Positions 1,356 to 62,225 of a DNA stretch of 64,000 bases are shown piece after piece (position 1 is the first letter of the stretch; every line of letters begins with the position of its first letter). The notes below the pieces were generated by a model that was given only the letters and a program-made list of their open reading frames with translations, was not told where the DNA came from and ran no database searches. The position numbers and the translations under genes are program-made. This DNA comes from Diplonema papillatum (lineage: Eukaryota; Euglenozoa; Diplonemea; Diplonemida; Diplonemidae), in assembly GCA_030068145.1 (NCBI GenBank), contig JAPJBO010000592.1:79942-143941 (forward strand), read 5' to 3'.

Positions 1356-1403
1356 CCCCCCCCCCCCCGAACAATCCTTCACTAAATCCGCGGTTAAATA
1401 ACC
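1356..1403. repeat. Left target-site duplication of RT-USP copy 1 (48 bp)
   Basis: Thirteen C residues of a 15-C run plus 35 bases ending TTAAATAACC are repeated exactly at 2467-2514, on the other side of the inserted element. This is a long duplication of the kind produced by staggered cutting during target-primed reverse transcription. Confidence 0.85.
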
Positions 1404-1803
1404 GTGGGGTGACGTTTACCTCGCGGCCTTTGTCCGGATCCCCCGGAATGCCCACGACATGACTGTCCGTGCCCCGTCACCCTCCATGGTGCTTCCTACT
1501 CAGGATCGGCTACCCGACTTGCCTGCACCCCCAGGTTCAGCCGGTAATTTGATGAGCCGGCAGTCGGAAGGATCACCTGACTCCTTCTGCCCCTTTGGTA
1601 ATTCGCCACCCTGCCCGCCCTTGCCGGACTCCCAATGTCTGACACCGCATGGTCAGTTGTTTGAACAGCAGTTAACAGGTTCCCCGGTGCTGCGATGTCA
1701 ACACTGCTCCGTCGAATGCACGAAGGATGGCCAGACGTTCCAAGGTCTGAGGGGACTCCGCGCGCATGAGAGACGTTGCCACCTCGCGGGTGTGAGATTC
1801 TGA
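1404..1803 (+). pseudogene. USP C-terminal strand and C2HC finger of an RT-USP element
   Basis: The frame continues upstream of the apparent ATG at 1459. It begins with residues that in the longer copy at 53.7 kb follow a USP-type WxxFDD motif (WGDVYLAAFV), then a Pro/Ser-rich linker, then a finger with the spacing CxxC, LRAHERRC. The partner protein at 16558-17982 ends with the same layout: CPYC, then LRVHQRFC. The catalytic Cys and His boxes are missing through 5' truncation, so this is a dead fragment. It sits in a presumed intron of the Sey1 gene on the same strand. Confidence 0.7.
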
Positions 1804-2466
1804 TCCGCGTCGTTTGAGCCTCATCGGATTCTTGATTGCTGGCTGGTCTATATTTCACTCCGCACCCGTTTACCCTGACTAACGGGAAAAACTCGAAGTG
1901 TCTGTACGAGTGAACGCACACTAACATGAGAGGATGAAGGCACGTATATGCCGCCTGGCCCTGTGCTAGGCGTAGTTTGAGGTTGTACTTATTTCCGAAC
2001 AACCTACCACGAGCTTATCCACCCACACCCCCATTTTTCCCCTTTCTTTTTATTTACTTTTTCCCGCCCGATGTCGCTGATGACTAACGGACCGTCGGAC
2101 CCGTCCCAACGGGGGTGCTTATGGAAGCTGCAATGAAGGCTTAGACCGGTACGGGCTACATGGCAACCCCTGCTCAACATGTAGAACGTGGGGGGCCCTT
2201 GATCACATTCATTACGGGTGTGGTCGTGGTGTCGGTCGCAATAGTCGCTTTGCTAGCCAAAGAGAGAGATAGAGAGAAAAAGAGCGCCAGAGAGAAAAGA
2301 AAAGATAACGTTATCTTCCGGAAAAGAAGGGTTACGCGAACCCCCGAAAAAATAATTACCCCCCAAAAAAAATATACAGAAAAAAGTAAAAACACAAACC
2401 GACGGTGACCCCCAAAACCTTTTTCAACCTTTCCAACACCCTTCAAGCTAAACCATTATACAACGA
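1404..2466 (+). mobile_element. 5'-truncated RT-USP retroelement, copy 1
   Basis: The segment matches 53782-54856 almost base for base for about 1 kb, differing mainly in an A-run near the 3' end. It starts inside the USP tail, runs through a C2HC finger and a long 3' UTR, and stops at TTATACAACGA directly before an oligo-C run. It is bracketed by a 48-bp direct repeat. 5' truncation, a constant 3' end and a long variable duplication are the known signature of target-primed retrotransposition. The two long copies look young because they are nearly identical. Confidence 0.85.
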
Positions 2467-2514
2467 CCCCCCCCCCCCCGAACAATCCTTCACTAAATCC
2501 GCGGTTAAATAACC
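2467..2514. repeat. Right target-site duplication of RT-USP copy 1
   Basis: Exact direct repeat of 1356-1403. The element's 3' end ACGA abuts the C-run with no poly(A) tail. Confidence 0.85.
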
Positions 2515-7636: not shown

Positions 7637-7700
7637 TTTGGGTTAGAATGCAAATAATCTGTGACGATATGCGGTGTCGCGGTTATCTCTTCGTACGTGA
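7637..7700 (-). repeat. Conserved 3' tail of a dispersed retroelement family
   Basis: Read on the minus strand this ends in GCATTCTAACCCAA. The same end, with ATTATCGCCACAGATTCTT before it, closes minus-strand fragments at about 45085 and 25253, is partly kept at about 15065, and appears on the plus strand near 36890. It marks the 3' terminus of one retroelement family. Confidence 0.6.
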
Positions 7701-10146
7701 TGTGTCATTCTTTCATCGTCTCCCCTGGCCCTTTGCCTTTCCAGCTTGAGGGACAGTGGACGAAAATACGCTCCTTTCGAAGTTTCGTGTTGCAGCGCAC
7801 GGATGGGAAGTGTGCTCTGCCACCCGAGCCGCCGTCAGCGAAAATCGGAAGAGGCCTCGCGTTTACCGTCTCAGGACTGTGTCGTGACCTGGCGCATAGC
7901 ATGCTAACTTCGAGGTACCTGAAGAGTGCGAGGAGTCAGCGGGAGCTTCGCGACCCCCTGGGGAAGGAATCGTTCGCTTGGGTGAAGAAAGACGCGCCAT
8001 CGGGGTTATCGTTTGTAACTGGGGCCGATGGGCGGCTCACTGCGAACTTGGCAGAAGTTGACGCGTTGGTGAGGAGGAGTTGGGATCCAGTGCTCCGCAT
8101 GTACGCCGAGAAGAGGGAACCCGAGTTTGCCCCTTTCTTCCAGGAGTACAAAGACTTTATCACGCAACACCCATGCAATCTAAATCCGATCACGGCCGAG
8201 CGGCTTCGTCAGGTGGCGAAAAAGAAGAGCGTACAGACGTCTTGCGGTGTAGACGGCTGGCGCATGCGTGAAATCGCCGCTCTGCCGAATGCAATCCTGG
8301 AAAGCTTTGTCGTGGTGCTCAACGAGGTAGAGGAAACCGGCTTCTGGCCCGACGGAGTCCTGGACGCAATGGTCACCTTAATTCCTAAAGGAGAAGGGAG
8401 TGATCCACTGAAGCTGCGTCCGATTACTGTCTCGAGCGTGGTATATCGACTCTGGGCTAGCGTGCGCCTACAGGATGTCATGCTCTGGCAAGAGCTATGG
8501 ATTCACGGGTCTCAACATGGTTTCCGGCACGGCCACTCCTGCGACGACGTGGTCATGGATATCGCCCTATCGATAGAGGAATCACTGACAAACGGTACAC
8601 CCCTGTGCGGGGTCGCACTCGACTTTGCAAAGTGCTTTGACCGCGTCCCTCAGGCCCTGGTGCTCGACTTGACGGAGGCGCTTGGGCTTCACGAGCGTGT
8701 GCTGGCACCCTTACGCCACATATACAAGCACCTGAGGCGTCGCTTCCGGTACCCTTGGGAGTCGGCGAGATATCCACTGTCACCAACGGAATTCTCCAGG
8801 GCTGCCCAATATCAGTGGTCCTGATCAACGCGCTCCTCTCTGTTCTCTCGAAGGCCTTGGTCAGCCGAGCTCGGGTGAGTCCAAAGTCGTTCGCCGACGA
8901 TCTGTACCTGCTGTCGCAACTTGCGAGGCTCCCTCGATCTAACCGGGCGAAGAGCCCTCTTGCGGTTCTCTCCCTGGATGCAAAAGCACACCTGTGTGAT
9001 CCGGCATGCGCCTCAGGTTTCAGCTTATTCCGCACGTTCGTGAAACAATACGGGAAAGAGAGGTTTCGGGTGAGGATGGACGCTCTCCTTGGCGTGGGAG
9101 CCGACTCGTCTATCAAGGGTCCCGTAGGTCCTATAGCTAATCTTCTGCGGGAGATAATATTCCTACGGGCCACGCAGCACAGCTTCCAGTCCCTGTCTTT
9201 CGACGGGACTCCCGTGTCGCTACTCGGAAAAGAAGCCCCACACCTCTTTCGTGAGGGCCTGCGTCTGCGCGCGTGGCGTTACTTGACCACACAGAGACAA
9301 GGATTTGACGGAATCGAAGGAGGGGTGGACGTACGTGCCATGAATCGGCTTTGGCTGAACCGCGCGACGGACCACAAATTGAGTTCCGCGATCAGTCGAT
9401 GTATTGGGGGAGCGGTGTACTCACGGGAATGGTGCCGCAGGAAGTGGGGTTCGGGGAGCGGCGACTGCGAGTTCTGCGACAGCGGTGCGACGGGGACCCT
9501 GTGGCATTACTACTGGCAATGTCCGGGCCCAGGTTGTAGATGGAACGAGCTGCGATCCCGGTTTTGCATTGCTGAGGCGATGGTCCGGGACATGCCCCAG
9601 TGCTTGTGCATTAGAGGGATACCCCCCTACGGGACCCCTCCTGACCTCCTGGAGAAGATCCAGAGGCTGATCGGTACGATCTCAATCGAGATGGCGCAGG
9701 CGCAGCGGAGCCTTGCGGCAACACGCCCTTGGGAACTCGCCTCAGGTGCGTCGACGAAATACGACGTACACTTAGCAACGGACAGTCGTAAGTTGCTTAC
9801 GACCAACATCGGAACCCGCTTCGCAGCGACGTTGGTCTTCTGGCTGCGGAGTCTATCGTGGGTCAGCTCCAACCCTCTCCCGACGACAGGCGTGGAACTC
9901 GCGCTTGATTTTGAGGCATTTACGCGTTCGAAGCTCCCGGGGAGAACCTTCGCCGAGAAGGGGCTGCAAATTGGGTACCTTATGCGAGCCATCAACGACC
10001 TGTGCTGCGCCGACTCAGCAGGGGGTCTGTTCCCTCCGCTGTTTTGGTGCGCCGGCTATGCCGGGTTGTACCCACCGCCCACGCTTTGCGGCTGGACGGA
10101 AGACCGAGTGGATGTTGGGCAAGCTGGAAACAATTTGCGCCCGTAA
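7661..10146 (+). pseudogene. Non-LTR retrotransposon reverse transcriptase, one frameshift
   Basis: Two overlapping frames (7661-8824 and about 8755-10146) together give one reverse transcriptase. The first holds the thumb-side linker CGVDGWRMREIAALP, finger motif LIPK, motif A DFAKCFDRV and the palm start. The second holds motif B NGILQGCP, catalytic motif C FADDLY and a downstream zinc-type motif CEFC...HYYWQC. A conserved tail follows (VELALDFEAFTRSKLPG). The style, SCGVDGW plus a C-terminal CxxC-HxxxxC, resembles retroelements abundant in dinoflagellates and other algae. The frame changes near 8750, so the copy is broken or mis-sequenced. No endonuclease domain is visible upstream. A continuation rich in Arg/Pro runs in another frame to about 10420. 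It lies in the large Sey1 intron. Confidence 0.85.
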
Positions 10147-14742: not shown

Positions 14743-14958
<216 letters not shown>

Positions 14959-15599
14959 GTTCAACCACATCGCCTCGCTCTGAAAGTAATTAGGTTGTCA
15001 TGGTTGACAGAATTCTTCAGTAGTCGGTAGTGCACTTTTTACTACTTTGACCTGTATCGCGTAGCTTTTGGGTTAGAATGCAAAAAAGATGACGATAATC
15101 TGAACTCTGGCTTCGAGGTGACGGCAAATAATTCCGGTTCAAGATCTTTGTGCGGTGAAATCAAAGCCTTCAGCGAACATCTTAACCACAGACGGACGAA
15201 CGACGCATATATGCGTCGTTTAATACAAGGTTATTCCTTCGAGCATGTCCGAAGCCAAGTACTCATGAAAAGTGGTCGTCGTTTGTTTTATTGGAAATAT
15301 ATGGCACAGGTCTTCAAATGCGACTTTCGTCGACAGTGATTTATATATGGGTCTGGGGCTCGGGGCCACCCCGAGCCAGTGCTCCCGCTAACGAAAAAGT
15401 GCGAGGAATTCCTCAAAATCTCTGGTTTGCATCTACTCGTGGCAATGATTTACCAGCACACAGTATCGAGTGGTGGTTGAATTTGAAATGGGCTGTTGCC
15501 TTCAGGAATGTGCAGTGTTTAGGTGTAATGCCCTTATATCCCACTCAAAACAAATTTGTGCCCTTGTATCCCACTTCAAACAAATTTTGTGCCCAAGAG
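14959..15599. other. Sey1 intron, no gene; retroelement tail fragment at 15065-15100
   Basis: TTGGGTTAGAATGCAAA near 15069 is the minus-strand 3' tail described at 7637. At 15528-15590 two 30-bp copies of a CCCTTRTATCCCACT...CAAATTTGTG unit stand in tandem, just before the reverse transcriptase begins. Confidence 0.5.
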
Positions 15600-16531
15600 T
15601 GGGTTTGACCGTTGACGAAGCGTATGACTACGAAGAGAAGCATGGTCACAACCACCTCACCAGGGGCTCAAAACAACAGGGTAAAAAGACCTCCAACTTC
15701 GGCAAAGGAGCGAACAACACCAACCGAAACTACACAAGAGAAGAAGTCAAAGCCCTTCTGAATTTCGTCATCGACAACGCCTCACATCGAGCAAGGCGAT
15801 ACGATTTTCAGACAGACAGGAGGCATACCGATGGGAGGTAACGCAAGTTCGGACTTAGCAAACCTTTACTGCTACAGCGCAGAGTCCGAAAACATCGACG
15901 GCCGTCTAGCACAGGGCAAACACGACGAAGCCAAAGCGTTCGTGAACACCTGGCGGTTCATCGACGACTTCTTACAATGGGACTGTAAACCCCCACCTGA
16001 AGCCTTATACCGAATGGAGTACAAAGAAACAGTCTAGAAACAACAACGGCGCGAGACGACACCGTTTTTTTAGGCATACGAATCCGCATCGAACGTCCAG
16101 AAGCACCACACCCAGCACACATACGACTCAATGTTCATCCTAAAACATACGGTACGCGCTTCACACACCACCAGACCACAGCCCCCAAGACTCAAGCAAG
16201 CGGCATCTTTAAAGGCTCGCTGATACGAGCGATGCGGCAAACCAACCATTGGCAGGACCTCCGCGTAGAGATACAGCGGAACGTCTACGCGATGCTCGAA
16301 CGAGGGCACCACCCGAGAGTCCTCTACCCCCCATGGCAAGCCTGGCTAACCGAGGAATTTCGAAGCTTACCACGACTGCACAACCAGCTGAAACCATTCC
16401 TCGGCTACAGTATCGCGCGATACAAAGCCGCGCATCGCAGAAGCCGAATTTGCCGGAAAACACCAACCTATCAACTTCAGACCAGCCGAACTACCAGTCA
16501 CGCCGGACGACCTCGCTTCTTCCTTAGATAG
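15600..16531 (+). pseudogene. Penelope-like reverse transcriptase (palm B/C motifs and thumb), frameshifted
   Basis: Three consecutive frame segments make up the domain. 15600-15820: a helix ending EEVKALLNFVIDNA, the region before motif B. 15819-16036: GGIPMGGNASSDLANLY (motif B, as in the PMGxxxAPxxANLF of Penelope-like enzymes) and WRFIDDFLQW (catalytic motif C with the Asp pair). 16067-16531: FLGIRIRIE followed by GIFKGSLIRAMRQTNHW and MLERGHHPRVL, the typical thumb region. A TAG at 16035 and a T7 run at 16065 separate the last two. The fit to the R(Y/F)IDD-containing Penelope-like group is by motif. A related, unnamed reverse transcriptase clade is possible. No GIY-YIG endonuclease is visible. 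Confidence 0.7.
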
Positions 16532-16557
16532 CAGCACCTCTACGACACACGAGCACG

Positions 16558-17982
16558 ATGAAAGTCGAAGACCGACGGCAACAAACACCAACGCACTTCA
16601 CCCTCAAACAAAGAGTAGCCAACATCGTAGCAAGCATCACCCTCGCAGCAGCAGTCGCGGCGGCCGGAGCCAAAACACTCTCAAAGCTCGCACGGTTCAC
16701 TACAACAAACTCCTGCTTCCTTCAAGCCGCGTTGAACCTAATCGCCGCCACCGACATGGCCCAACAAGTGGTTACATACAACGAATGTGCATCGCACGCG
16801 AAGGGCGATTGTACGGCAGCCGTAAGCGATTGGGTTACAGGAAGACGGACGCAAGTGACACTTCTGCATGTTTTCGCCAGCATCGACGGCCCCTTCGGGG
16901 ACGGGCAGCAGTGTGATCTCGGGGAAGTCCTTCGTGCAATCACTACAGCCCTACTGAACGAAAACGCAGCGCACCAAGCTTGTCAACAGAATCGGCAAGA
17001 CGCATTCGTCGGCCTCCAGCACAACATTACAACAACCACAACCTGCAAACAATGCAGCCACTCCAAGTCCAACTCACCGGAAACTCAAGACATTACGTAC
17101 CTTCCACCAGGCGGCAATTCGATACAGAGATGTCTGAACCTCTGGAGCACACCCCGCTTAGCCGTCGACTACAAATGTGAAGCTTGCAAACTCACCAACA
17201 CCACTTTGACAAGACCTTGCTACCAACACATCAACACAATGCTGCTTATCCAACTTCAAAGGGCACGCAAAAACGACACAACAAACCGCACCGCCATACA
17301 CGCAGACCACACCATCACACTCCCAGGACGTAACGCCCCCCTCAATCTAAGAGCGATAGCCGTACACTCCGGCCACAACAATGCAGGCCACTACGTCATC
17401 CACGCCCTCAACGAGTCTGCAGACGCAGGCCAACGATGGTCATGTTTCGACGGTGTTCGGACGCACCACACACCGGCCCCGACGTACTCCAGCAACGAGA
17501 TTTTCCTCTGCGTCTACCAGCCTCAAGACGTCCAAGTAATGGTGGTCCCCCCACCAGTCTTCTTACCATTCAACGACCACAAAACTACACCCACCTCGCC
17601 GATAACCATGTCTGCAGACGCGGGTTTAACCCAGGACCTCTTAGACGCCATACGAGGAGACGAATTATCCGCCACTCAAACTGGAACGCAGCTCGACGAG
17701 CACACCGCCGCCGACAACAGCAGAGCCACCACACCTACAAGTTTAAATACCCCGCAAAGCACCACCTCTACCACGGAACCAGAATCTAGCAGCGACGACG
17801 ACTTGCAATGCCCCTACTGCCACGCACGAACAACGGCAGCCGGACACCTTTTTAAAGGAAAGCAGGGACTGCGCGTGCACCAACGGTTCTGCAAAGAAAG
17901 ACCACCAACGGTTCAACTAGAATACACACTGCAAGGTCCCGCGAAGAAACGAGACAGATGCCCATATTGCAACAGCGACTAG
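16558..17982 (+). CDS. Ubiquitin-specific-protease-like domain with C-terminal C2HC finger, carried by a retroelement
   Basis: The 474-residue frame shows the ordered landmarks of peptidase family C19 (USP), which cleaves ubiquitin or ubiquitin-like proteins from substrates. Cys box: TTNSCFLQAALNLI (Asn51, Cys53). QQxxQDAF lies near 143-150. A zinc ribbon has CKQC at 163-166 and CEAC at 207-210. MLLIQLQRA is the strand usually read as LxxHLKRF. His box: GHNNAGHYVIHAL (His278). WSCFDG follows with Asp298. A Thr/Ser-rich linker of about 100 residues leads to CPYC...LRVHQRFC and a last CPYC. All catalytic positions are present, so activity is plausible. The ATG is uncertain because upstream frames differ. 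It sits directly behind the reverse transcriptase and on the same strand. Roles such as protecting element proteins from degradation are speculation. Confidence 0.75.
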   Translation: MKVEDRRQQTPTHFTLKQRVANIVASITLAAAVAAAGAKTLSKLARFTTTNSCFLQAALNLIAATDMAQQVVTYNECASHAKGDCTAAVSDWVTGRRTQVTLLHVFASIDGPFGDGQQCDLGEVLRAITTALLNENAAHQACQQNRQDAFVGLQHNITTTTTCKQCSHSKSNSPETQDITYLPPGGNSIQRCLNLWSTPRLAVDYKCEACKLTNTTLTRPCYQHINTMLLIQLQRARKNDTTNRTAIHADHTITLPGRNAPLNLRAIAVHSGHNNAGHYVIHALNESADAGQRWSCFDGVRTHHTPAPTYSSNEIFLCVYQPQDVQVMVVPPPVFLPFNDHKTTPTSPITMSADAGLTQDLLDAIRGDELSATQTGTQLDEHTAADNSRATTPTSLNTPQSTTSTTEPESSSDDDLQCPYCHARTTAAGHLFKGKQGLRVHQRFCKERPPTVQLEYTLQGPAKKRDRCPYCNSD

Positions 17983-18280
17983 TGGGGAAACCACTTTTCA
18001 CAAGTCTACGCCATCACGATCCCTGGTGCAAAAAGAAACACAAAGCAAAGCGACGCGCTACCTCTAAGAAACCGACGGACGAAAAACTAGATACACCACG
18101 GGTACCCAGTGTGCCCAGAGTGCCCTAACTGTGGCGAGCAACGAACAGTGCAACTACTTATCTTCTAAATTGTTTTTTTCACTACCGAGAGCGACGACGT
18201 CACGCACTTCGAAAAGCGCAACGTTCGTTTCTACCCGCAAACCTCTCTGAGCTATTCTACACTCTTCTCTACGTAGAGCC

Positions 18281-18400
18281 ATGATGCGAACAATGGACCG
18301 GTACGGTTTACAGGGCAACTCCTGCTCAACTTGTAGGACGTGGGGAGCCCAAGAGCACTCACCTATCCTGGCGAGAACTTGGTGTCGGTCACAAATTGTT
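18281..18400 (+). promoter_or_regulatory. Conserved 3' UTR block of the RT-USP family
   Basis: About 50 bp from GACCGGTACGG to GTAGGACGTGGGGAGCC match 2147-2200 and 54527-54580 at roughly 85 percent by eye, while flanking UTR is much more diverged. Such conservation in a 3' UTR suggests an RNA element needed by the reverse transcriptase, though function is inferred. Confidence 0.55.
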
Positions 18401-18484
18401 TCGAACCTGACTCGTCTAAGCGAGCAAATAAAGTGTACACGAAAGAAGCCATGCATGCCCCCCCCCCCCAACGAGCTACGAACA

Positions 18485-20831
18485 CACGGTGCACTAGTCA
18501 AGGACTTTTTTGACTTTGACTAGTGGTTTTACTAGTCAAATTTGACTAGTAAAATGACTAGTGCCACTAGTAAAAATGACTAGTGCACTAGTAAAAATGA
18601 CTAGTGCACTAGTAAAAATGACTAGTGCACTAGTAAAAATGACTAGTGATTTAGACAAAATCCACCTAACCTGGACCCAAATCCTGGGTGTTTCGAGAGT
18701 TTTCGAGGGGTTTCACGGTACTACCGTGACCACCGGTGCCCAGACACCACAAACCACCTGGGCAACCCCAGTTTTCGCGAGCGACAGGCCGAGTTGCGAG
18801 GTTTTTGGTTGGAAAGTTCCTGAGCTTGTATGGCTTAGCAAACATAGTGCAAACGACAGTGCTATCCCTACGGTGAGGTCAGAGACATGTCGTGACAGGT
18901 CTCAGACACTGGACATAATGCGGGCTTCCGACCACATTCAAACTCTGGTCCGTAGATTCGGCTTGTCGCTCATGGCGCTCCTATCGCCTTGGCATCGCAC
19001 CCGACCAGTAGTGGGTTCCCTAAAACCCACGAAGATATGAGAGATGGTCGGCAGGTCTTCTTGCCGAGCTTCCCAACATGAATGTGCAACAGGTGCTGGC
19101 TTTGTCCGCCTGCGAACTGTTTGCAGGCAAGGCTTTGTGTTGTGCACATTCCACAAATAGTTGCTCACTGCTATGTGCTCCGCTTTCAAGTGTTGGAGGC
19201 ACTCTCTCATGGAGTGCTTGGAGACTTCCTCTTTCACGCCGCCGCGGAAAACCATTCTTGTAGCCTGTGGCGCGCGCGTTGTGTGCCAGTCAACACGTCG
19301 TGGTGCTTTGTCCGGTCATTTCGAATGCCTGGAAGTCACGTTTCTTTGTCTTTTCGGGACGTGAAGACGACCATTGAGCCCACCGATCAATTGCTCAAAG
19401 CTTTCGTCGGGTGGGACACCAGCAGGTTCTGGTTTCTACTCGTCGGGTTTACGGCACGGTGAATCGCGTAGCCGGTGTACTTTTTGTGGAAACAGCTTCT
19501 TTCGCATCTTCGGTTGTTCACATACGACGATAGAAATCACCGCCTCGGAGTAGCTTGAACTCACAACGCACTGTCTATCGGGCATTGGGAGCTACTAGTA
19601 GTAAGTGCGGAAGAGCATGAGGCAGGCAAGCTGTATAACACTCCTAGTAGGCAACAAATTCCCAGAAACTCCCCGTACTCAGCCGTGGTGCTCGCCTGCC
19701 TTCATGGCACTTGCACTTTACAGAACTCAATACTCAGCCCGATTCCTGTGGGGGAAGAGTGGGGGTGGGTGGCCCACCAAAAAAGCGACCACAGTTCTCC
19801 GCAAAACACAAACCGACGAGTAATCGTGACTTATTCCTGCAGAACTGGCTTTGTTGAATGACGCTCGTGGCAGACAACTGACCCCAAGCTTTCGTCTATC
19901 GCACAGTAAGGATTCGCGTTGGGAACTGCGTTCGGAAAATCATTGGACCGGAATTTCTTTTTGGACTTTTTGGAGGTTCTGAAAGTTTTGGACTTTTCCC
20001 TGGGGTTTTCACTTTTTGGCGGTATTTTGAAGTCTGACCCAAGCAGCTTTTGCACTCGTTTCGTGTTTCCGTTACACAAATGATGGGACCGGCAGAATGT
20101 ACGAACATTTCAAAGCTTCCCGAATTCCGGGCCGAAACGCGTCCAAATTGGTTCAGGTTACCTTTAGTTTCTGTTTGTCCTTAAAACCCGTGGTGCACGA
20201 TCATGACTATGGGCATAGCCTGGGTCGCTTAGACAAGCACATGACGGGGGCGACTCATGAGATTGCCCCCGTCGCCGACCACGTGCCGGAACACGACGTC
20301 CGGGACCGGCTATACTTGATCAACTCCTTGAACGTCAGCAGCCCGCTGTCGTCGGCATCCACCGCGTCAAAAACGCGCGTGTCCGCCACTCGGCGGCCAG
20401 GACGTCGCCTTCACTCAGCGACGCTCGCTTCACTGCGAGCTCACCGAGGTCGAGTCCTTCCGCGGCATGCCGGCTTGCTCCGTAAGTCCTCACTTGGACC
20501 GGAACCTTTTTGGACTTTTGGCCCAAGTTTTGGGGGTTGGAAAAGTATTTCGACTTTTTCCCGGTCCAACATTATTCCGAACACGGTAGCAAGCGCAACG
20601 GTAGGGTACAGTTTTGCGGTGGGACCCTCTGAAATTTACAAACCAGCCCAGATTTCGGTTCGGAACAGGTGGATTTCTACGAGGACACTAGTCATCTTGA
20701 CTAGTGCACTAGTCATTTTTACTAGTGTTTTTACTAGTGCACTAGTCATTTTTACTAGTGCACTAGTCATGCTTTTTCACTAGTAAAATGACTGGTCAAA
20801 ACACCTTTTTCACTTTTACTAGTGCACCGTG
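18485..20831. mobile_element. CACTA-like DNA transposon A1 with ACTAGT subterminal arrays
   Basis: The ends are CACGGTGCACTAGTCA on the left and its complement ending GCACCGTG on the right. They are flanked by a 2-bp CA duplication (18483-18484 and 20832-20833). The empty site is preserved at 63734-63760, where GAACAGCCGCC is uninterrupted. Arrays of ACTAGT palindromes spaced by GC or AAAAATG fill 18490-18650 and 20690-20820. Short terminal repeats, a 2-bp duplication and subterminal arrays fit the CACTA/EnSpm (CMC) superfamily. The interior is a decayed relative of the transposase in the 30-kb element: 19020-19255 minus still shows a VGKLGKKTC-like finger remnant. Confidence 0.75.
20300..20376 (-). 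pseudogene. Isolated EF-hand-like segment inside element A1
   Basis: On the minus strand a short frame reads VFDAVDADDSGLLTFKELIK, a good 12-residue EF-hand loop (D-x-D-D-S-G-x-L-T-F-x-E) with flanking helices. The frame opens just after a stop, and another frame upstream continues differently. It may be a captured host exon or chance. Only one hand is visible. Confidence 0.3.
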
Positions 20832-39345: not shown

Positions 39346-42281
39346 TATCCTGTGGTAAGCCACAAGGATTCCTGCCTTTTTGGGTTGAAAATCACCCGGT
39401 CTCGGTCTCTCTCTTTTCTGGTAAACGTGCTTCTGCGTTTCGGGGGTCAGAAACGCTGGTTGGAGAAAAGGTATGTTGGGTGTCACATACAGGGCTTTTT
39501 GGTGGGATTTCTGAGGTCACAATCACACGGTGTGCTCCAGCACCGGGTGAACTGTGCAGTCCATTTTGCGGGTGTCACACCTGCACCTGTGTAAAGTTTA
39601 GATGGCTTCGAAGTTGTAGACGTTGGAGTGCCGCGGTCTTGACCAGGACTCGCCTGGCCGCTCGCGCTCCGATCTGTGCCAAGCAGTCAGGGCGCGAGCG
39701 GAGGCATCAAATTTATGGCCTCATACGTCAAGAACCTTGTGCGCCCTGGACGCCCGCATACTCGAGGTTCTAAGCAGCGCCAGAAACTCGCCCAGAATCT
39801 GGGGAGCAGCGCCGTGGTCATGGACGGCATCGAAGATCGTCCTCCGAACTCCTTCACGCCCGGCGGCTTCGCCCGCCGTAGGGAAGTGGGAAGGCCCTCG
39901 AGGCTGAAGAAATGAAGGACTCATATTTGGCAAGCGGTCTGAGTCAGACAGAAATGACATCAGAAGGAGACGAACCTCAACCTCAGCCGCGTAAACTTCC
40001 CGTTTTGGAGGCGAAACGGAGATGCGGGGCAGATGCCCGCGATGGACAGCCGACGTTCACAGCTGAAGCGAGCCGCGGATGGCCCGCGAGGGGGAAAAGG
40101 AAGTGCGAAACGGGTGGATCATAGAACTCATCATACCTCGTGAACGTGGAGCGTGCGAGTGTTGCTGCTGCATACAAAGTCAAACGAGAACGCTCGAAAA
40201 CTGTCGATAACGCCACATGGGTCGTTGCATAGAGAACAGGTCTCGACTTGGCCTGCGATAGTGGCATCATGACGAACCATAAGAACCCCACTTATCACTT
40301 TCCACCGACGTGACGCCGAAAGTGTCGCGTTTCAGACGTCTACGAGGCGGAGACGCACGCGAGGGTGCAAGCAGCATTTCAGGGCCGCGCCACTTCGGCT
40401 GGTGACGACGAGGCATGGAGGCCTCCGGGTCGTGGGTTGGCGTTCCGTTTACGTCGACGCCGCGCACGGTTGGGTCTTTGCGCGACGCGGGAGGCTGCGA
40501 GGTCAGGAGCAAACGCCGTTCCCGGACACATGCGGAGATGTGGCTGGTTGGCAGGGAGTACCCCACTGGCATGATCTTCGCCGGGCGTTGACGAGGCCTG
40601 GGTGCCTTTTGGTCGCGTACCGGCAACCCAACTGCGTTGACGCTGTCCCCCTGTGAGGGAGCGGAGGAGGTGTCCGAATAAAGAGCGTGTCGCTTCACGG
40701 TCCTGGAGGCGAGCACGGGTCGACAGGCCGTCGTCCTCAGCTTCGAGCAGGCATGGTACGCAGGCACTTTCGTAGAAGTTCGTCTTCCTGCGATCTACGA
40801 ATTTCATCTCTGACGTATGCACGACTGGTGCTGGTGCCAGCTCGGCTAGCGTGCCCCTATTCGACACAAGAACGAGAGTGTGATCGTAGATGATCTGATA
40901 CCGTCGTAATCCACTGTAAACGATCCCGGGAGCGCTGAGCGCAGTGGCATCGGCGCTCCCTAACGTTGTGTGTATCGCTCGCTGAACGCTTCGTACTGCA
41001 GGCAGGCGGGGCGGGGAGCGGCATGTGCCCCGGCGTCTGTGGCGGGGGCGCGGCCTTCGGGGACGAGCGCAACAGGTCTGCGAACTCGCCCTCGGTGGCG
41101 GAAGGCGCCGACGCGACTGCGAGCCACGCCAGTACCCACTGGGCCACGCGGCCTCCTCGTCGGTGTAGCCCAATTGGGCGCCTCCTGGGCGCCTCAGCCG
41201 CGGTGCCCTCGACGACCTTCAACACCGTCGAGAGACGGCGGTTGTTGGCGGTGAATGAAAAAAGGGACGGGACATCAGTCCCGATCACCAGCTCACCGCA
41301 TCCGACCTATTGAGCTGCCTCGGCATTTTTTGTTGAACGCTTACGCCCGCCACTAAACCCAGATTTACCTGTGTTTCGTGTGGGCTACAGCACATTAACC
41401 TCCTTTGATCTATCGCAACTGGCAGTCTCCTCAAGCATTTCCTATAAAGCAGGTGCTTGAAAAAACAAAATAGTCTGCCCTTACAACCCTGCGGAAATGC
41501 CTCAAATCATGTTTTTTCCACGTTTTGAGCACCAAACCGGGCGTTTACACCGTGGTGCCACCATTGGGTACCGGTTGATAGTTGAGGAAGGTGCAAACAT
41601 GGAGACAGCTACAGGAGTCCTGGGCACGTGCCTCGCGGGGCAGGTGGGCCTGTGACCCGCTTTGAGAACCCTGGAGTCCGGCATGTGTGCCGTTACGGGA
41701 TACGCTTCCTACTCATGGGAGGCACTCTCACACCTCAAAACCGGACCAACCACTAACGCAACAAGAAGACAAGAAGACGTACAACTGTGAAACCTTGTGA
41801 AACAGTGTGGGAACTTGGACTTGCTCGGCCACTGTGCCCTCCACGGCTCGCGTCCTCCCGCCGGCTCTTCCCGGCTACTCGCGTCCTCCGCATCTCGGCG
41901 TGCCCAAAACGTCCTGGATCTCCCCAAAACCAGTACCTGTTTGCTCTCTATTTTAGGAAAGACCGACTGGACAAAAAGAAATGTGGTGTCAGTTTCAAAG
42001 GTGGCCCACAATTGTATACCGGTAAGGTCCAACAAGGTCCACGCTAGCGGGTTGGCCGCCGCAAGTCGGGGCTGGTTGCAGTGCGGGCGACAGATTGCTG
42101 CAGTTGAGATGGCGCGTCGCGCAGACTTGGAGCCGGCATTGCCGGGACAACGACAGGCCCAAGCGGTCACCAACCAACCAAGCAGCCCACGAGCAATCAT
42201 CGTCATCATGAGAGCGAGGCCCAAATCAACGCAATGAAAGTAGTAATTTCAACGCAGGGGGGCTGGCGGGTGGAGGGCAGC
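39346..42281. other. Intergenic region upstream of Snu114, no recognised gene
   Basis: A minus frame at 40857-41288 (PSLFSFTANNRRLSTVLKVV...AQWVLAWLAVASAPS) and the frame at 40379-41173 have gene-like composition but no motif I know. Plus frames at 39623-39915 contain a basic segment (RPHTRGSKQRQKLAQN). The Snu114 promoter should lie near 41.7-42.2 kb, but no box stands out. Confidence 0.4.
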
Positions 42282-43913
42282 ATGTCGGATCAATACGATG
42301 AGTTCGGCAATTTCATCGGGAAGATAGACGACAGCGAACCAGAGGACTCGTCGTCGTCCAGTTCCTCCGATGACGAGGAAGATGAAGAGGAGGAACCCAA
42401 GGAGACGCCGATGGATGTGGACAATTCGGTCAGCCACGGGGCAATCGTGCTGCACGAAGACAAGCAAGACTACCCGGAGGCCGAGGAAGTGTTTGGAAAG
42501 GGAACCGAAGTGGTCGTGGGGGAAGAGGATACGCAGCCGATAGAGAAGGCGATCATCGAGCCCAAGGTTGAGAAGAAGTTCCACGCCCCGGAGAAGAAGA
42601 AGAGCAAACGCATGAACGTACAGGACGACTACATCCACCACGTCATGCGTATGCCGAAGCTTATTCGGAATCTGACGGTCGCCGGCTCATTGGGACACGG
42701 GAAAACCACGTTTTTCGACTACGCCCTTGGCGAGTCCGGCCGGTACACCGACGTGCGAAAAGACGAGCAGGAGCGGGCTCTCTCGATCAAGGGGACCCCC
42801 GTGTCCGTCCTGATGGAAAATGACAAAGGGAAAAACTACCTGTTCAACATGATGGACACCCCGGGGCACGTCAATTTTCTGGATGAGGTCGCGGCGGCGT
42901 GCAGGCTGTCCGACGGCTTGGTCCTGGCTGTTGACGCGATAGAGGGGCTCATGGTGCAGACAGAGAAGGTCTTGAAGCAAGCACTGTTAGAAGGCTTATC
43001 GATGGTGTTGCTGATCACCAAGATGGACCGGTTAATCCTCGAGCTGAAGCTACCGCCGCACGACGCCTTCAAAAAGCTGCAGCACGTCATCGGCGAGCTG
43101 AACGGGTTCATTCGAACCTGTCAACTCCACCCCCGTTACAACGGGGTTCACCCCCGGTTCTCGCCGGACAGGAACAACGTCTGCTTCTCAGCGGCGAAAT
43201 TCGCGTGGAGCTTCACGCTTCTCTCCTTCGCGAAAATCTATGCTGGCTACTACAACAACATCGACCCGGTCCGCCTGGCGCAGCGGCTGTGGGGCGAGAT
43301 TTACTACGACTCAGTGTCGCTGAAATTTTACAAGGAGAAGACGCGGCCGCGACCGGAAGGCAAAGATGATGACGACGACGATAGTGACGACGAGCTTCCC
43401 GAGAGGAAGCTCGCCTTCGTCGCGTTTATCCTCGAGCCCTTGTATAAGATCTTCGCGCAGGTTGCCGGAGAGGACCCCAAATCACTAGCACCGATGCTCG
43501 ATGAGATTGGCGTGCGAGTTTGGCGGAACGAACTACGCATGGACGCCGACGATCTTCTCGGAATCGTGACGAGTCGATTCTTCACGGATCCTTCAGGCTT
43601 CGTCTCGATGGTGACCGAACACATCCCTGACCCCTCCTCAAACGCGACGAACCGAGTGCCGTGGCTGTATACCGGTCCTCAAGCCGGCCCGACGGCGGAA
43701 GGCATGCTGCGCTGCGACGCGAACGGCCTGCTTATGGTCTACGTTACAAAACTTTACAGCCGCGGGGACGCCAGCGCATTCGACGCGCTGGGACGTGTCA
43801 TGTCCGGTACTCTCCGGCGAAGCAAACAAGTCCGCGTCCTCGGAGAAGCCTACACAGAAGAGGATCCGGAAGACATGTCTCTTGCAGAGACCAACCGCTT
43901 GTGGGTTCCGCAG
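42282..43913 (+). CDS. SNU114: U5 snRNP GTPase Snu114/EFTUD2, exon 1
   Basis: Snu114 is the EF-2-like GTPase of the U5 snRNP that controls spliceosome activation and disassembly through the helicase Brr2. The ATG at 42282 begins MSDQYDEFGNFIGKI, the conserved family start (YDEFGNYIG). An in-frame ATG 48 bp upstream gives an unrelated extension. The acidic Ser/Glu-rich N-domain is followed by RNLTVAGSLGHGKTT (P-loop, near residue 138), MDTPGHVNF (G3, near 191) and ITKMDRLILELKLPP (G4 near 246, with the family's own LILELKLPP), then the domain-II region (MLRCDANGLLMVYVTKL). The exon ends RLWVPQ at a GTATGC donor, phase 0. Identity is unambiguous. The total visible protein is about 800 of the roughly 970 residues usual for the family. 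Confidence 0.95.
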
Positions 43914-43976
43914 GTATGCCCAGCAGAGAGCAGTCCCTGCACTCTTCCTCGTTTCTCTCTCGGAAAGGGTCAACGC

Positions 43977-44954
43977 CTACTGGGGGGGCCAATTACAATT
44001 GAGTTCAATTGTAATATAACGATACACGGCGTGGAATTGGGGGGTCTCAGACCCCCCCCCCCAAAACACTAGTGTATTACAATTGAAGTGCAGCTTGCCT
44101 GTTAGAAACACGTTGTTGTCGGGACTAAATGACACAGTGTGAGTACAATGCAACTCCGAGCAAAAACTGAAGGAAAACCTTCACGCAACAAGCGAAAGGT
44201 TCGAGCCCGCAGTTCGGACTCCGAGCCCTGATTTCTCGTGCACCGGGTCGGAAATACCCAACTGGTGTATGCCGTGGGTGTTTCCACCAACACCTGGCAA
44301 GACTCCTGCCAAGACTCTTGGCAAGAGAGTACCCCGACTTGGGCCTGAGGTTGACTTTTTCTGGGGCGGTTGCTCAGTATCAGAGTTTCCAACAGCATGG
44401 CGACCGCAGTCCGACGAACTTACTGCTTTCTCTTTTTGACAGAGAGCGCTGGCGGCAGACGGGCACCACTGATAAATCTGGGGATAACAAGATGTCCCAT
44501 CCGATGGGCCATCGCCCCCATGCCGGGCCACGGTCACGATTGGCAGTGTCTCCGGCTGGCTCCGAAGCTCAACTCCGGAGCTGGCTCAGCAGCTCCGGAG
44601 CCACCGCCACACTGCGACATGATCCCCACACAGCCAGCTCCAAGACTTTGGCACGAGCAGCGACATCACCATGATCATGCTCAAAACCTTTAGAAGACCC
44701 GGGTTCGTAATGCACACCAAAACCTCGTTTTAAGATTTCTTCTCCGCTTTGGTTCCAACATGACTTTTCCAAAAAAAGCCGAAACGAAAACGGCCGCCTC
44801 ACTGACTGGCTCACACTCAACGGCAGTACAGCAACATTACAATTCAATTGTATTATACGGTTGGGATGCGCCGATTCCCCGAAAAAAAAGTTCAATTGTA
44901 TTATACGGTTCAATTGTATTATACGGTTCAATAGTAATTAGCCCCCCCCAGTAG
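43977..44954. mobile_element. DNA element E with CAATTG palindrome arrays
   Basis: CTACTGGGGGGGCCAATTAC at the left mirrors TAATTAGCCCCCCCCAGTAG at the right. CAATTG palindromes in ATTGTATTATACGGTT units follow each end (43990-44030 and 44835-44935). It inserted 63 bp inside intron 1 of Snu114. The interior has no intact gene. Confidence 0.65.
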
Positions 44955-46084: not shown

Positions 46085-46321
46085 GATGGGGCCCCTCAGC
46101 CTAGAACATTGCTTGGCCCTTGACCTGCGCCCACGGCAAGGTCTTTCTGGTTTTTTTTGGTGGCCTCATCACCGACTCTGGGAGAGCGGGGGGTCTGGGG
46201 GGCTTCGCCCCCCGGCGAACGGTATGGTACATCAAATTGGGCCAAATTGGGGGTCCGGGGGGCACACCCCCCGGCGCACGGTACACTACACCAGGTACAG
46301 GTACATGTGACGATAGACGTC

Positions 46322-47100
46322 GGCTTGGCGCTTTACAGCCAAATCGGGTATGTTACGCTCGTGTTACGCTGTTTTTTAGCGAAAATTATCATGTTACGCT
46401 CGTGTTACGCTGTTTTTTAGCGAAAATGGTCATGTTACGCTCGTGTTACGCCGTTTTACAGCCAAATTGGGCATGTTACGCTCGTGTTACGCTGTTCTTT
46501 AGCGAAAATTATCATGTTACGCTCGTGTTACGCTGTTTTACAGCCAAATTGGGCATGTTACGCTCGTGTTACGCTGCTTTACAGCCAAATCGGGCATGTT
46601 ACGCTCGTGTTACGCTGTTTTTTAGCGAAAATTGTCATGTTACGCTCGTGTTACGCTGTTTTACAGCCAAGTTGGGCATGTTACGCTCGTGTTACGCTGC
46701 TTTACAGCCAAATCGGGTATGTTACGCTCGTGTTACGCTGTTTTTTAGCCAAAATTATCATGTTACGCTCGTGTTACGCTGTTTTTTAGCGAAGATTATC
46801 ATGTTACGCTCGTGTTACGCTCGTGTTACGCTCGTGTTACGCTGTTTTACAGCCAAATTGGGCATGTTACGCTCGTGTTACGCTCGTGTTACGCCGGTTT
46901 TTAGCGAAAATTGTCATGTTACGCTGGATTACAGCCAAAATTATCATGTTACGCTCGTGTGACGCTTTTTTTTTAGCGAAAATTGTCATGTTACGCTCGT
47001 GTTACGCTCTTTTACAGCCAAAATTATCATGTTACGCTCGTGTTACGCTGTTTTTTAGCGAGAATTGTCATGTTACGCTCGTGTTACGCTGTTTTGTCAA
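46322..47100. repeat. 41-bp satellite with two alternating unit types
   Basis: About 18 units share CATGTTACGCTCGTGTTACG. One type goes on TTTTTTAGCGAAAATTAT, the other TTTTACAGCCAAATTGGG, both 41 bp. The long plus frame through them (46120-46962) is a by-product of the repeat. Confidence 0.9.
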
Positions 47101-53671: not shown

Positions 53672-53725
<54 letters not shown>

Positions 53726-53727
<2 letters not shown>

Positions 53728-54856
53728 GACACGGGGTGGATCCTCTTCGACGACCTGCACGTCACCTCTGTCGACGACATTCCGTGGGGTGACGTTTACC
53801 TCGCGGCCTTTGTCCGGATCCCCCGGAATGCCCACGACATGACTGTCCGTGCCCCGTCACCCTCCATGGTGCTTCCTACTCAGGATCGGCTACCCGACTT
53901 GCCTGCACCCCCAGGTTCAGCCGGTAATTTGATGAGCCGGCAGTCGGAAGGATCACCTGACTCCTTCTGCCCCTTTGGTAATTCGCCACCCTGCCCGCCC
54001 TTGCCGGACTCCCAATGTCTGACACCGCATGGTCAGTTGTTTGAACAGCAGTTAACAGGTTCCCCGGTGCTGCGATGTCAACACTGCTCCGTCGAATGCA
54101 CGAAGGATGGCCAGACGTTCCAAGGTCTGAGGGGACTCCGCGCGCATGAGAGACGTTGCCACCTCGCGGGTGTGAGATTCTGATCCGCGTCGTTTGAGCC
54201 TCATCGGATTCTTGATTGCTGGCTGGTCTATATTTCACTCCGCACCCGTTTACCCTGACTAACGGGAAAAACTCGAAGTGTCTGTACGAGTGAACGCACA
54301 CTAACATGAGAGGATGAAGGCACGTATATGCCGCCTGGCCCTGTGCTAGGCGTAGTTTGAGGTTGTACTTATTTCCGAACAACCTACCACGAGCTTATCC
54401 ACCCACACCCCCATTTTTCCCCTTTCTTTTTATTTACTTTTTCCCGCCCGATGTCGCTGATGACTAACGGACCGTCGGACCCGTCCCAACGGGGGTGCTT
54501 ATGGAAGCTGCAATGAAGGCTTAGACCGGTACGGGCTACATGGCAACCCCTGCTCAACATGTAGAACGTGGGGGGCCCTTGATCACATTCATTACGGGTG
54601 TGGTCGTGGTGTCGGTCGCAATAGTCGCTTTGCTAGCCAAAGAGAGAGATAGAGAGAAAAAGAGCGCCAGAGAGAAAAGAAAAGATAACGTTATCTTCCG
54701 GAAAAGAAGGGTTACGCGAACCCCCGAAAAAATAATTACCCCCCAAAAAAAATATACAGAAAAAAAAAAAAAATAATAAAAACACAAACCGACGGTGACC
54801 CCCAAAACCTTTTTCAACCTTTCCAACACCCTTCAAGCTAAACCATTATACAACGA
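53726..54856 (+). mobile_element. 5'-truncated RT-USP retroelement, copy 3
   Basis: It begins inside the USP domain with DTGWILFDDLHVTSVDDIPW, the Trp...FDD end of a USP fold. It then runs through the same C2HC finger frame and 3' UTR as copy 1 and stops at TTATACAACGA (54856) before nine C residues. It sits in the oligo-C tract of the right terminal repeat of transposon G. The tract is 52 C long on its 5' side, so the target duplication is hidden in C-runs. Confidence 0.8.
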
Positions 54857-54999
54857 CCCCCCCCCTTTTGGCATCGTACCATATGTTTTCGGATTATTTT
54901 GAGGGGTTGAACTTAAAATGCATCCGAGAAGGGTGAATGCCAACCCAAGATTGGACTCAGGGCTCGAATGACACTGCGGCCAGGTGTCCGTCAGTCTAT

Positions 55000-60491: not shown

Positions 60492-62225
60492 ATGGACAAA
60501 TTTGTTGTGAAGCGCGAGTGCTTTAGGTTCTTGGAGAGCGGTGAGTGCCCTTTGGCGAAGGAAGAATCAGAGTGCGTGAAACAGGAAGTGGCCAGGTCCG
60601 TAAGAGCTGCCAGAAACACCACCACCAAGCCCACCTGGTGTGATGCCGACAAAGAGCGCATTGCCAACCTTGTCGCGAAGTACGGGCAAACATCTGCCAT
60701 AAAACAGTGGAACCGCGATCCGTGTAACCGACGACTCACCGATGCAACTGCTGTGCGATTCTTCAAGCAGTCGAACCCCTACTCAAGCCACCCAAACGAG
60801 GAAGACACACCATCCTCACAACCGAGGAAGAGGAACTACTTCTGAAGTTCCTCAAGGCTGCACGGGCGACAGGAACAGCAGTGTCGTCCCACTTCGTGAG
60901 CAACGCCGCAAGAGGGATCGTCAAGGCATCGCAAGATGCAGACCGTGCAGATGACACCTCACTGGGCGTGGAGTGGGCGCGTAAGTTCCTCAGCCGGGCC
61001 GGATGGGTGTTGAGGCGGGTGAACACATCGTTTGTTGAGACGAAGATGTTTCAAGATGCGACGTTCAAGACGTTCTCCAGTGAGTGCCAAGAGCTTCAAA
61101 GGCTGCACCGCATCTGGTCGTAAACGCAGACCACACCTCAATCCCCATCGTGCCGAACATCGACGGGACCTACGATGTACGGGGGAAGGGAAGGGTGGCC
61201 ATCAAGCACCGTGGGGACAGGCGAACAATCACATACACTGCGGGAAAACAGCGCGTGTCTTTCCCAAGACGGGAGATGCCAACGTCAGCGGCTGGTCGTT
61301 TGCAAACAACTCGAAACATTGGGCATCGGAGGCGACTACAATCGAGTGGATCGAAGACATCCTAATCCCGCACAAGCAGAACGTGATCAAAACCCTGAAG
61401 CTCGAAGATGATGCTCACTCTCTTCTTGTCATCGACAAGTTCGCCGGGCACCTGGAGAAGAACAACATCAAGACTGTCTGCATTCCCGCCGGGTTCACGG
61501 CTTGCCTCCAGCCGATGGACCTTGCCTTCAACGGACCGTTCAAGTCCCACATGCGAGAACGGTTTTCGAGCTGGTTCCAGAAGAAGTTTTGTAAGGCGTG
61601 GAAGAAGGGCGAGAAGAAGGCGCGGCAGAAGGCAGGGCAAGGCGAGGACCCTGAGCAAGAAGCAGCCGTATCCGACAGGCTCATCAAGATGTCCCAGAAG
61701 GTGAAGACCGGAACAAAGGACATACGGGACATCCACTTCCAGTGGATTCACAAAGCCTTTACCGATGTCCCTGTGGATTCACTACGGGCTTCGTTCGTCA
61801 AGTCTGGGATCATCCAGGGGGATGATGTGAATCCGGCTGCCGACCTTGACGCTACACACAGGCTTGAGCCACCGGCGGACGAGCGTGACGAGCTTGACCA
61901 AGAAACCCATGAACTTCTGGAGGCAGCCGCGGCCGAGTTCGATGCGCTGTTTGGGTACGACGACACCCCTGAAAATTCTGATCCAAGCGGGCCAGCTGAA
62001 CTCGATGACCTCGGGCCCGTGATTCCTGATCATGATCCTGGTGAGCCGCACCGTTCTCTGAGGGAGCTCAAGCTCGTTGGAGCTCAAATCAAAAAGCTGC
62101 ACGCGTTCTTCGAAGCCAGTTCTGTCTTCACGTTCCTGGGCGCAAATGCCCTTCAACGATTTGTCCCTCCAGAGGGTGTGCGCGTCGAGGTTCACCCATG
62201 CTGTTGTGAACACAGACCCCTCTGA
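60492..62225 (+). pseudogene. pogo/Tigger-type (DDE_1) transposase, several frameshifts
   Basis: Four frame segments in order. 60492-60845 is an N-terminal part with a helix-turn-helix-like stretch (CNRRLTDATAVRFF). About 60818-61123 is the CENP-B-like DNA-binding helix region (TEEEELLLKFLKAARATG, GWVLRRVNTSF). About 61084-61290 carries LVVNADHTSIPIVPN (first catalytic Asp) and HRGDRRTITYTA. 61270-62225 carries SLLVIDKFAGHLEKNNIKT (second Asp) and IPAGFTACLQPMDLAFNGPF (third Asp, the DDE_1 QPxD motif), then a Lys-rich and an acidic tail. The frame changes at about 60810, 61090 and 61250 and cannot be intact. No clear terminal repeats were fixed. Confidence 0.75.

Follow-up and report, generated by a model that had tools for sequence, protein, structure and literature searches.

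A ubiquitin-specific protease domain in a probable Penelope-like retroelement of Diplonema papillatum

In a stretch of 64,000 nucleotides of Diplonema papillatum DNA (GenBank assembly GCA_030068145.1, contig JAPJBO010000592.1, positions 79,942 to 143,941 of the forward strand; hereafter the window), pieces of a reverse transcriptase (RT) are followed on the same strand by a ubiquitin-specific protease (USP) domain and a C2HC finger. Do these parts belong to one retroelement, and what would a USP do in it? An earlier reading made from the letters of the window (the sequence-only reading) had joined them into a single Penelope-like element. We searched the genome that contains the window (271 Mb, 2910 contigs), and copy numbers from these searches are lower bounds, to be read as at least the number given. 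The account we favour, with a probability of about 0.68, is that of an endonuclease-bearing, Penelope-like element whose USP would act as a deubiquitinase in cis on the element's own protein and its neighbours.

RT, USP and finger in one reading frame

The element in the window is real, but alignment to its relatives corrected the limits proposed for it, 15600..18453, to 15595-18464. Its parts, in window positions, are as follows.

15595..18464, + strand: window-family element copy, 5'-truncated and frame-broken, covering about 2.87 kb of a roughly 10-kb element (blastn against the relative L027 (C167): 94.4% over 2892 columns)
15596..16441, + strand: latter half of the RT core (GIPMGGNASSDLANLY, FIDD, FLGIRI) plus thumb, as three frame pieces (tblastn with the frames of L027 and L031; translation)
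16528..17982, + strand: open frame of 484 codons with the end of the RT-USP linker, USP core, linker and first C2HC finger
16693..17535, + strand: core of the USP (PF00443), with approximate limits (residues 59-309 match in Pfam at E=7.5e-10; motif positions; alignment)
17044..17055, + strand: USP zinc Cys pair 1, CKQC
17176..17187, + strand: USP zinc Cys pair 2, CEAC
17809..17892, + strand: first C2HC finger, CPYC...GLRVHQRFC
17959..18029, + strand: second C2HC finger, whole in L027 and L029 and split by a frame break in the window copy

The FIDD-type motifs and thumb described for the RT were present on the expected strand, but they are distributed over different frames: the pieces at 15596-15778, 15786-16034 and 16037-16441 translate as ...GIPMGGNASSDLANLYCY..WRFIDDFLQW..TVFLGIRIR... 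followed by the thumb. The first half of the RT and everything upstream of it are absent from this copy. For the protease the sequence-only reading was borne out at each place it had named, with Cys53, His278 and Asp298 (numbered from the Met at 16558; codons at 16714, 17389 and 17449), both zinc Cys pairs and the finger at 17809-17892. When the frame 16528-17982 was compared with PF00443, it matched at E=7.5e-10 with 39.3 bits (cut-off 23.9). The copy ends approximately 97 bases before the 3' end common to its relatives, at a C run, and is most likely a dead, 5'-truncated member of an endonuclease-bearing, Penelope-like retroelement, as judged from its sequence.

Intact relatives were found in the same genome. 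The USP-finger protein of the window (P0001) gave 91 matches, 88 of 1272 candidates being scored, and these matches exclude chance for this protein. The relatives comprised copies at 94-99% whose frames reach 2663 codons, a 64% group reaching 2762 codons, and a further group at 51%. In L027 and L029 GIY-YIG, RT, USP and two C2HC fingers follow a repeat-containing P/T-rich tail in a single frame. A genome search with PF00443 scored 149 of 935 candidates, many of the weaker ones being near-identical repeats. We set aside as host-like, by score and not by a test, the 34 rows with the best scores, C2681:4754 and two rows on C70. The other 112 rows were taken as element-type; 13 of them lie in 1562-codon frames and 12 in 1585-codon frames. 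Both of these frames read GIY-YIG, RT, thumb, USP, finger.

PF00443 was matched by four relative frames in Pfam at E=5.8e-23, 1.5e-20, 1.1e-9 and 1.3e-7. The GIY-YIG model PF01541 was matched in the 3 frames that extend far enough upstream, at E=1.1e-4, 1.5e-4 and 0.026; the cut-off of 22.6 bits is exceeded by the first (22.9 bits) but not by the other two. A Pfam scan of 4 frames at E<=0.1 returned UCH, UCH_1, GIY-YIG and two weak unrelated models, with no Ulp1 or OTU domain among them. GIY-YIG, which the sequence-only reading had not noted for this element, precedes the RT in the intact relatives; it occupies residues 165-215 with the RT starting at about 578 in the 1562- and 1585-codon frames, and the corresponding positions are 1238 and 1636 in L027.

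The adjacency of RT and USP proposed from the window recurs in other genomic copies, at 51/67 and 38/41 loci. In the first of these searches, made with the RT of the 1562 family, 67 loci of 667 candidates were scored, and the 51 have a scored USP (PF00443) 0-1500 bp downstream on the same strand, in the same open frame in 49. The other 16 loci were two 1585-codon frames, five 1590-codon frames and nine others; the USP of the 1590 type was not among the scored PF00443 rows, yet it is present in the fetched 1590 copy L038. The RT of the 2663 family gave 84 rows, 41 of them at >=76% identity. A P0001 match lay downstream in all but one C1154 row and two C831 rows of these 41, with the same frame length in 34. 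The remaining 43 rows (60-63% identity) lie outside the coverage of the P0001 search; for three of them the downstream DNA was fetched, and it encodes a USP with two fingers in every case (L040, L041, and L042 in two frame pieces). Altogether, a USP with one or more fingers was present in 8/8 RT families with downstream DNA read, namely the 1562, 1585 and 1590 families, which form one group, and the 2663, 2762, 51%, 2210 and 1027 families, which form the window-type group.

An uninterrupted RT-USP-finger frame, which had been expected of a genuine element, therefore exists, in frames of up to 2762 codons that also encode GIY-YIG. As predicted from these frames, the element protein is a GIY-YIG domain, RT with thumb, USP and one or two C2HC fingers, preceded in one group by the P/T-rich tail. 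This N-terminal tail (L027:7087-8616, L029:7151-8483) contains tandem repeats of about 190-210 bp and is under little constraint (omega 0.39-0.60). Basic stretches resembling nuclear localization signals were seen by eye, upstream of the USP in the one group and C-terminally in the other.

The USP domain: homology, residues and selection

A profile of six element USPs was compared with the PDB. The best match was USP36 (E=6.7e-16, profile positions 11-295 of 298), followed by USP46, USP12 and others, and the best 60 of the 106 PDB rows were ubiquitin hydrolases. The cellular USP36, USP12 and USP46 are thus the nearest solved sequences, and the USP identity first read from the window is supported by a sequence profile that matches solved USPs. 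The 1562-family stretch alone matched USP12 at E=6.7e-11.

Catalytic Cys and His were retained in 9/9 representatives (the 8 families and the window) and the Asp in 8/9, with Asn in its place in the 2210 family. In USPs an Asn five residues before the Cys serves the oxyanion hole; it was present in 3/9 representatives, those of the 1562, 1585 and 1590 families, and this group also retains the usual USP Cys and His boxes. The zinc Cys pairs are two CxxC in the window and its group, and CxxC and CxC in the 1562/1585 group. An Ala-rich hydrophobic segment lies directly before the USP in window-type families (window approximately 16609-16689, L027, L029, L031, L040 and L041). It accompanies a USP without the usual oxyanion Asn, and the 1562, 1585 and 1590 families show neither trait.

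Selection was evaluated in three low-divergence pairs. USP omega was 0.28 for 2663/969 (bootstrap range 0.12-0.54; one-sided P=0.00066), 0.12 for 2762/2602 (0.05-0.23; P=8e-9) and 0.26 for 1585/L012 (0.12-0.55; P=0.001), and with transitions weighted 3:1 the P values were 0.0039, 2.5e-7 and 0.0054, respectively. RT omega was 0.08, 0.045 and, on just 49 codons, 0.35 in the same pairs, and the finger segment gave 0.05 on 13 changes in 2663/969. Part of the change in 969 and L012 may be neutral, since both are broken or truncated copies. On these codon comparisons the USP is under purifying selection. Synonymous sites were near or at saturation between the more distant families within a group, indicating that the families are old.

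The reverse transcriptase and the marks of insertion

In the RT alignment of both groups LVILPVDK, LPYLYGxLKLHK, DFxTMY, RQxxGIPMGxNAS, ANL, IDD and FLG were invariant, a motif set that looks Penelope-like to us. The GIY-YIG alignment had Y, YxG, R, E and N columns common to both groups, which are presumably catalytic. We take a GIY-YIG placed N-terminal to the RT to define the Chlamys/Naiad type of Penelope-like elements, and this arrangement was found here. The RT is most likely Penelope-like; because matches to the RT libraries were weak, the assignment draws mainly on anatomy, together with the motifs.

The copies also resemble insertions in their ends. The element on C233 is 10,019 bp long and has a 393-bp direct repeat at its two ends with 99.7% identity. 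On C167 a partial tandem copy lies upstream of the element, and C230 has a head-to-tail pair of 1585-type copies whose period is 7,901 bp. Copies have a common 3' end and differing flanks, with an A run at the end of the 2663 family and a C run at that of the 1585 and 1562 families. Two further 5'-truncated copies were located in the window itself, the first of them between exact repeats.

1404..2466, + strand: second USP-element copy, 5'-truncated, 1585 family, with USP end, finger and 3' untranslated region (blastn 99.5% to L009 over 1402-2489; limits taken between the repeat copies)
1356..1403, + strand: 48-bp target-site repeat, left, 13 C + 35 bp; exact repeat at 2467-2514
2467..2514, + strand: 48-bp target-site repeat, right, exact repeat of 1356-1403
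53725..54865, + strand: third USP-element copy, 5'-truncated, 1585 family, between a long and a short C run (blastn 99.0% to L009)

The 13 C of the 48-bp repeat might be element tail in the right copy. As read from the DNA, the 5' truncation, the one 48-bp target repeat, the terminal direct repeat, the tandems and the 3' ends at A or C runs are marks of insertion. Tandems, pseudo long terminal repeats (pseudo-LTRs), 5'-truncated copies and target-site duplications are described for Penelope-like elements in excerpts from PMC11167929 and PMC3846280.

Possible role of the USP, related systems and surrounding DNA

Ubiquitin is one means by which hosts restrain retroelements. In the element proposed here, GIY-YIG would nick the target and the RT would copy the element RNA from the nick, target-primed, while the C2HC fingers would hold nucleic acid. 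The USP, acting in cis, would deubiquitinate the element's own protein and nearby ones, possibly including chromatin at the insertion site, and this might let the complex evade the proteasome or host restriction long enough for integration. Target-primed copying by GIY-YIG and RT has been proposed for Penelope-like elements in an excerpt from PMC11167929.

Several results weigh against this proposal. Thr or Ser occupies the position of the oxyanion Asn in 6/9 representatives (the window and the 2663, 2762, 51%, 2210 and 1027 families), and the deubiquitinase activity of the window-type group is less certain because the canonical Asn is absent. P0001 alone matched USPs of the PDB only at E=0.087 or worse. 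For the finger segment, two pairs gave omega values of 1.84, from 7 substitutions, and 0.96, from 4. As for the RT, the group II model TIGR04416 was matched by 5/5 members at best at only E=9e-4, PF00078 by 2/5 at best at E=0.053, and a profile search of the PDB matched no RT. No hammerhead ribozyme was detected when 8 loci, a set without L028 and L037, were compared with Rfam at E<=1, or when five 3' regions were scanned for the core motif; such ribozymes are not universal in Penelope-like elements. No target repeat was seen at the main copy of the window, the C233 element or the L011 copy, and at the 53725 copy and L012 the target-repeat search returned C-run matches only. Finally, relatives came from one genome only, none being found in viral contigs (two proteins and two alignments) or in bacterial and archaeal contigs (RT alignment).

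The lack of the usual oxyanion Asn in the window-type group, and the Asn that replaces the third catalytic Asp in one family, would suit a USP that has lost catalysis and is kept as a ubiquitin- or protein-binding module. We regard this as unlikely, since Cys and His persist in all nine representatives at identities as low as 22-26% and the USP is under purifying selection. The USP could also be a processing protease that cuts the element's own polyprotein, like retroviral-type proteases, instead of removing ubiquitin. The element does encode one very long protein of several enzymatic units with poorly conserved linkers, omega being 0.67, 0.20 and 0.08 for the USP-finger linker in three close pairs with few changes and 0.44 for the RT-USP linker in one pair. 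However, known USPs cut after the C-terminus of ubiquitin, no ubiquitin-like domain or common Gly-Gly was seen at the linkers in an inspection by eye that was not followed by a search, and linker identity between families is only 29-38%, so that self-processing appears rather improbable.

That the element is another endonuclease-bearing retroelement, not Penelope-like, is quite doubtful. The weak matches to generic RT models and the failure to find a hammerhead ribozyme in the loci scanned would agree with it, but GIY-YIG in frame with the RT, terminal direct repeats, tandems or partial tandems and 5' truncation form a combination described for Penelope-like elements in excerpts from PMC11167929 and PMC3846280. 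These elements can carry host DNA and genes, according to excerpts from PMC6431247 and PMC3846280, and the USP might accordingly be a functionless passenger caught from the host. This is very improbable, because the USP is selected, with omega well under 1, and is present in each of the 8 RT families examined, which are old.

A single capture of the USP, before these families diverged, is suggested by a tree built from 9 element USPs and 7 host USPs, the latter drawn from more than 30 host-like PF00443 rows. The element USPs lie apart from the host enzymes, on one side of a branch with modest support (70/81), with the warning that long branches meet there. Both groups also have one and the same pattern in the finger that follows the USP, which likewise speaks for one origin. 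A fuller history can be offered as a tentative possibility: a diplonemid Penelope-like clade might have captured a host USP a single time, ahead of its split into families, and might now depend on it, as the first retroelements with a C19 deubiquitinase on the protein that bears RT and endonuclease; the substrates of the USP might be ubiquitinated chromatin or repair factors where the element inserts, and the window-type group might have evolved a rebuilt oxyanion hole.

It is hardly credible that RT and USP are neighbours by accident, whether a host USP gene happens to lie next to a retroelement or the assembly is wrong. The frames of the window copy are broken, and one flank is common to four near-identical copies (C1222, C1389, C1655, C2198), so that some contigs may duplicate a single locus assembled repeatedly; yet insertions with different flanks have the same 3' end and dozens of frames are uninterrupted. 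The adjacency counts rule out that a host USP gene and an RT fragment met by chance.

We know of no Penelope-like element with a USP and C2HC finger(s) after the RT. Craig et al. are said to have described, in 2021, permuted Penelope-like elements of the Chlamys/Naiad type with an N-terminal GIY-YIG. The present element resembles that type in having GIY-YIG upstream of the RT in one frame and differs in what follows the RT, a USP and C2HC finger(s). A full-text literature search that covered sources other than Craig et al. 2021 and its supplements, where a prior mention is possible, found no retroelement with a C19 protease. A paper on Chlamys in Ectocarpus (PMC12477816) contains no word starting with "ubiquitin", and one on Ginger elements (PMC2836005) contains the words OTU and ULP.

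Penelope and Poseidon, as excerpted from PMC11167929 and PMC3846280, are alike in having RT and GIY-YIG in one open reading frame, pseudo-LTRs, tandems or partial tandems, 5'-truncated copies and target-site duplications. Unlike the present element, they have a C-terminal endonuclease and a hammerhead ribozyme (not found here), and those excerpts name no element protease. An Ulp1-like protease occurs in nematode NeSL families and one Utopia family (excerpt from PMC4640811). These are similar in that a retroelement protein bears zinc fingers and a cysteine protease of a type acting on ubiquitin-like modifiers; theirs is of Ulp1 type, N-terminal, accompanied by a restriction-like endonuclease and, in that excerpt, confined to nematode families. 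Helentrons are likewise mobile elements with a deubiquitinase-like domain, but they are DNA elements with Rep/helicase and an OTU-like cysteine protease, not a USP (excerpt from PMC6431247). The same source describes Burro, giant Gypsy-like elements of planarians, whose extra domains (MATH/TRAF-C, a RING-linked motif, BIR) were tied by its authors to ubiquitination and apoptosis; Burro is an LTR element, and no USP is mentioned in the excerpted part. Cellular USPs differ in being host enzymes without an RT. The Diplonema papillatum genome paper (PMC10161547) names LINE-, SLACS-, R2- and jockey-like elements in the excerpted portion, Penelope-like ones not being among them there, and its main text has no word starting with "Penelope" or "ubiquitin".

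If the favoured account of a deubiquitinase acting in cis is correct, a retroelement clade with its own selected ubiquitin-removing enzyme would provide a natural case for a direct test of the contest between host and element, and the range of retroelement protease types would extend beyond the Ulp1 type.

A 19-base query, taken by us to be the euglenozoan spliced-leader end, had 628 exact matches in the genome, and its reversed control had 0, in keeping with a diplonemid host. Searches for light-harvesting proteins, phycobilisome linkers and the RuBisCO large chain, the last usually encoded in plastids, gave no match, which speaks against a photosynthetic host. A pattern for the end of the SSU rRNA had 0 matches, a result of little weight. 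No spliced leader was found on the element when 17 exact bases were required in the window and in the fetched loci other than L043 and L044. The two spliced-leader copies read, in those two loci (L043:1482-1519, L044:1482-1519), carry ACCAACGATTTAAAAGCTACAGTTTCTGTACTTTATTG, then GC and not GT, as though the genome had taken up copies of trans-spliced mRNAs.

Around the element, a TAC triplet run lies upstream at 14744-14956 of the window, and short palindrome-like repeats such as CTAGTCAAATTTGACTAG and ACTAGTGCACTAGT were seen by eye directly after it, at 18494-18660. A second RT at 7658-10143, in two overlapping frames (PF00078 at E=5.9e-8 and 0.0036), is probably a different broken retroelement. 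Host genes were recognised at 42108-44069, encoding a U5 snRNP 116K-like GTPase (PF16004, PF00009), and at 46105-46959, a SEN1-helicase-like piece (E=1.1e-5, below the cut-off). A frame at 61023-62222 resembles a DDE_1 transposase (PF03184, E=3.6e-12).

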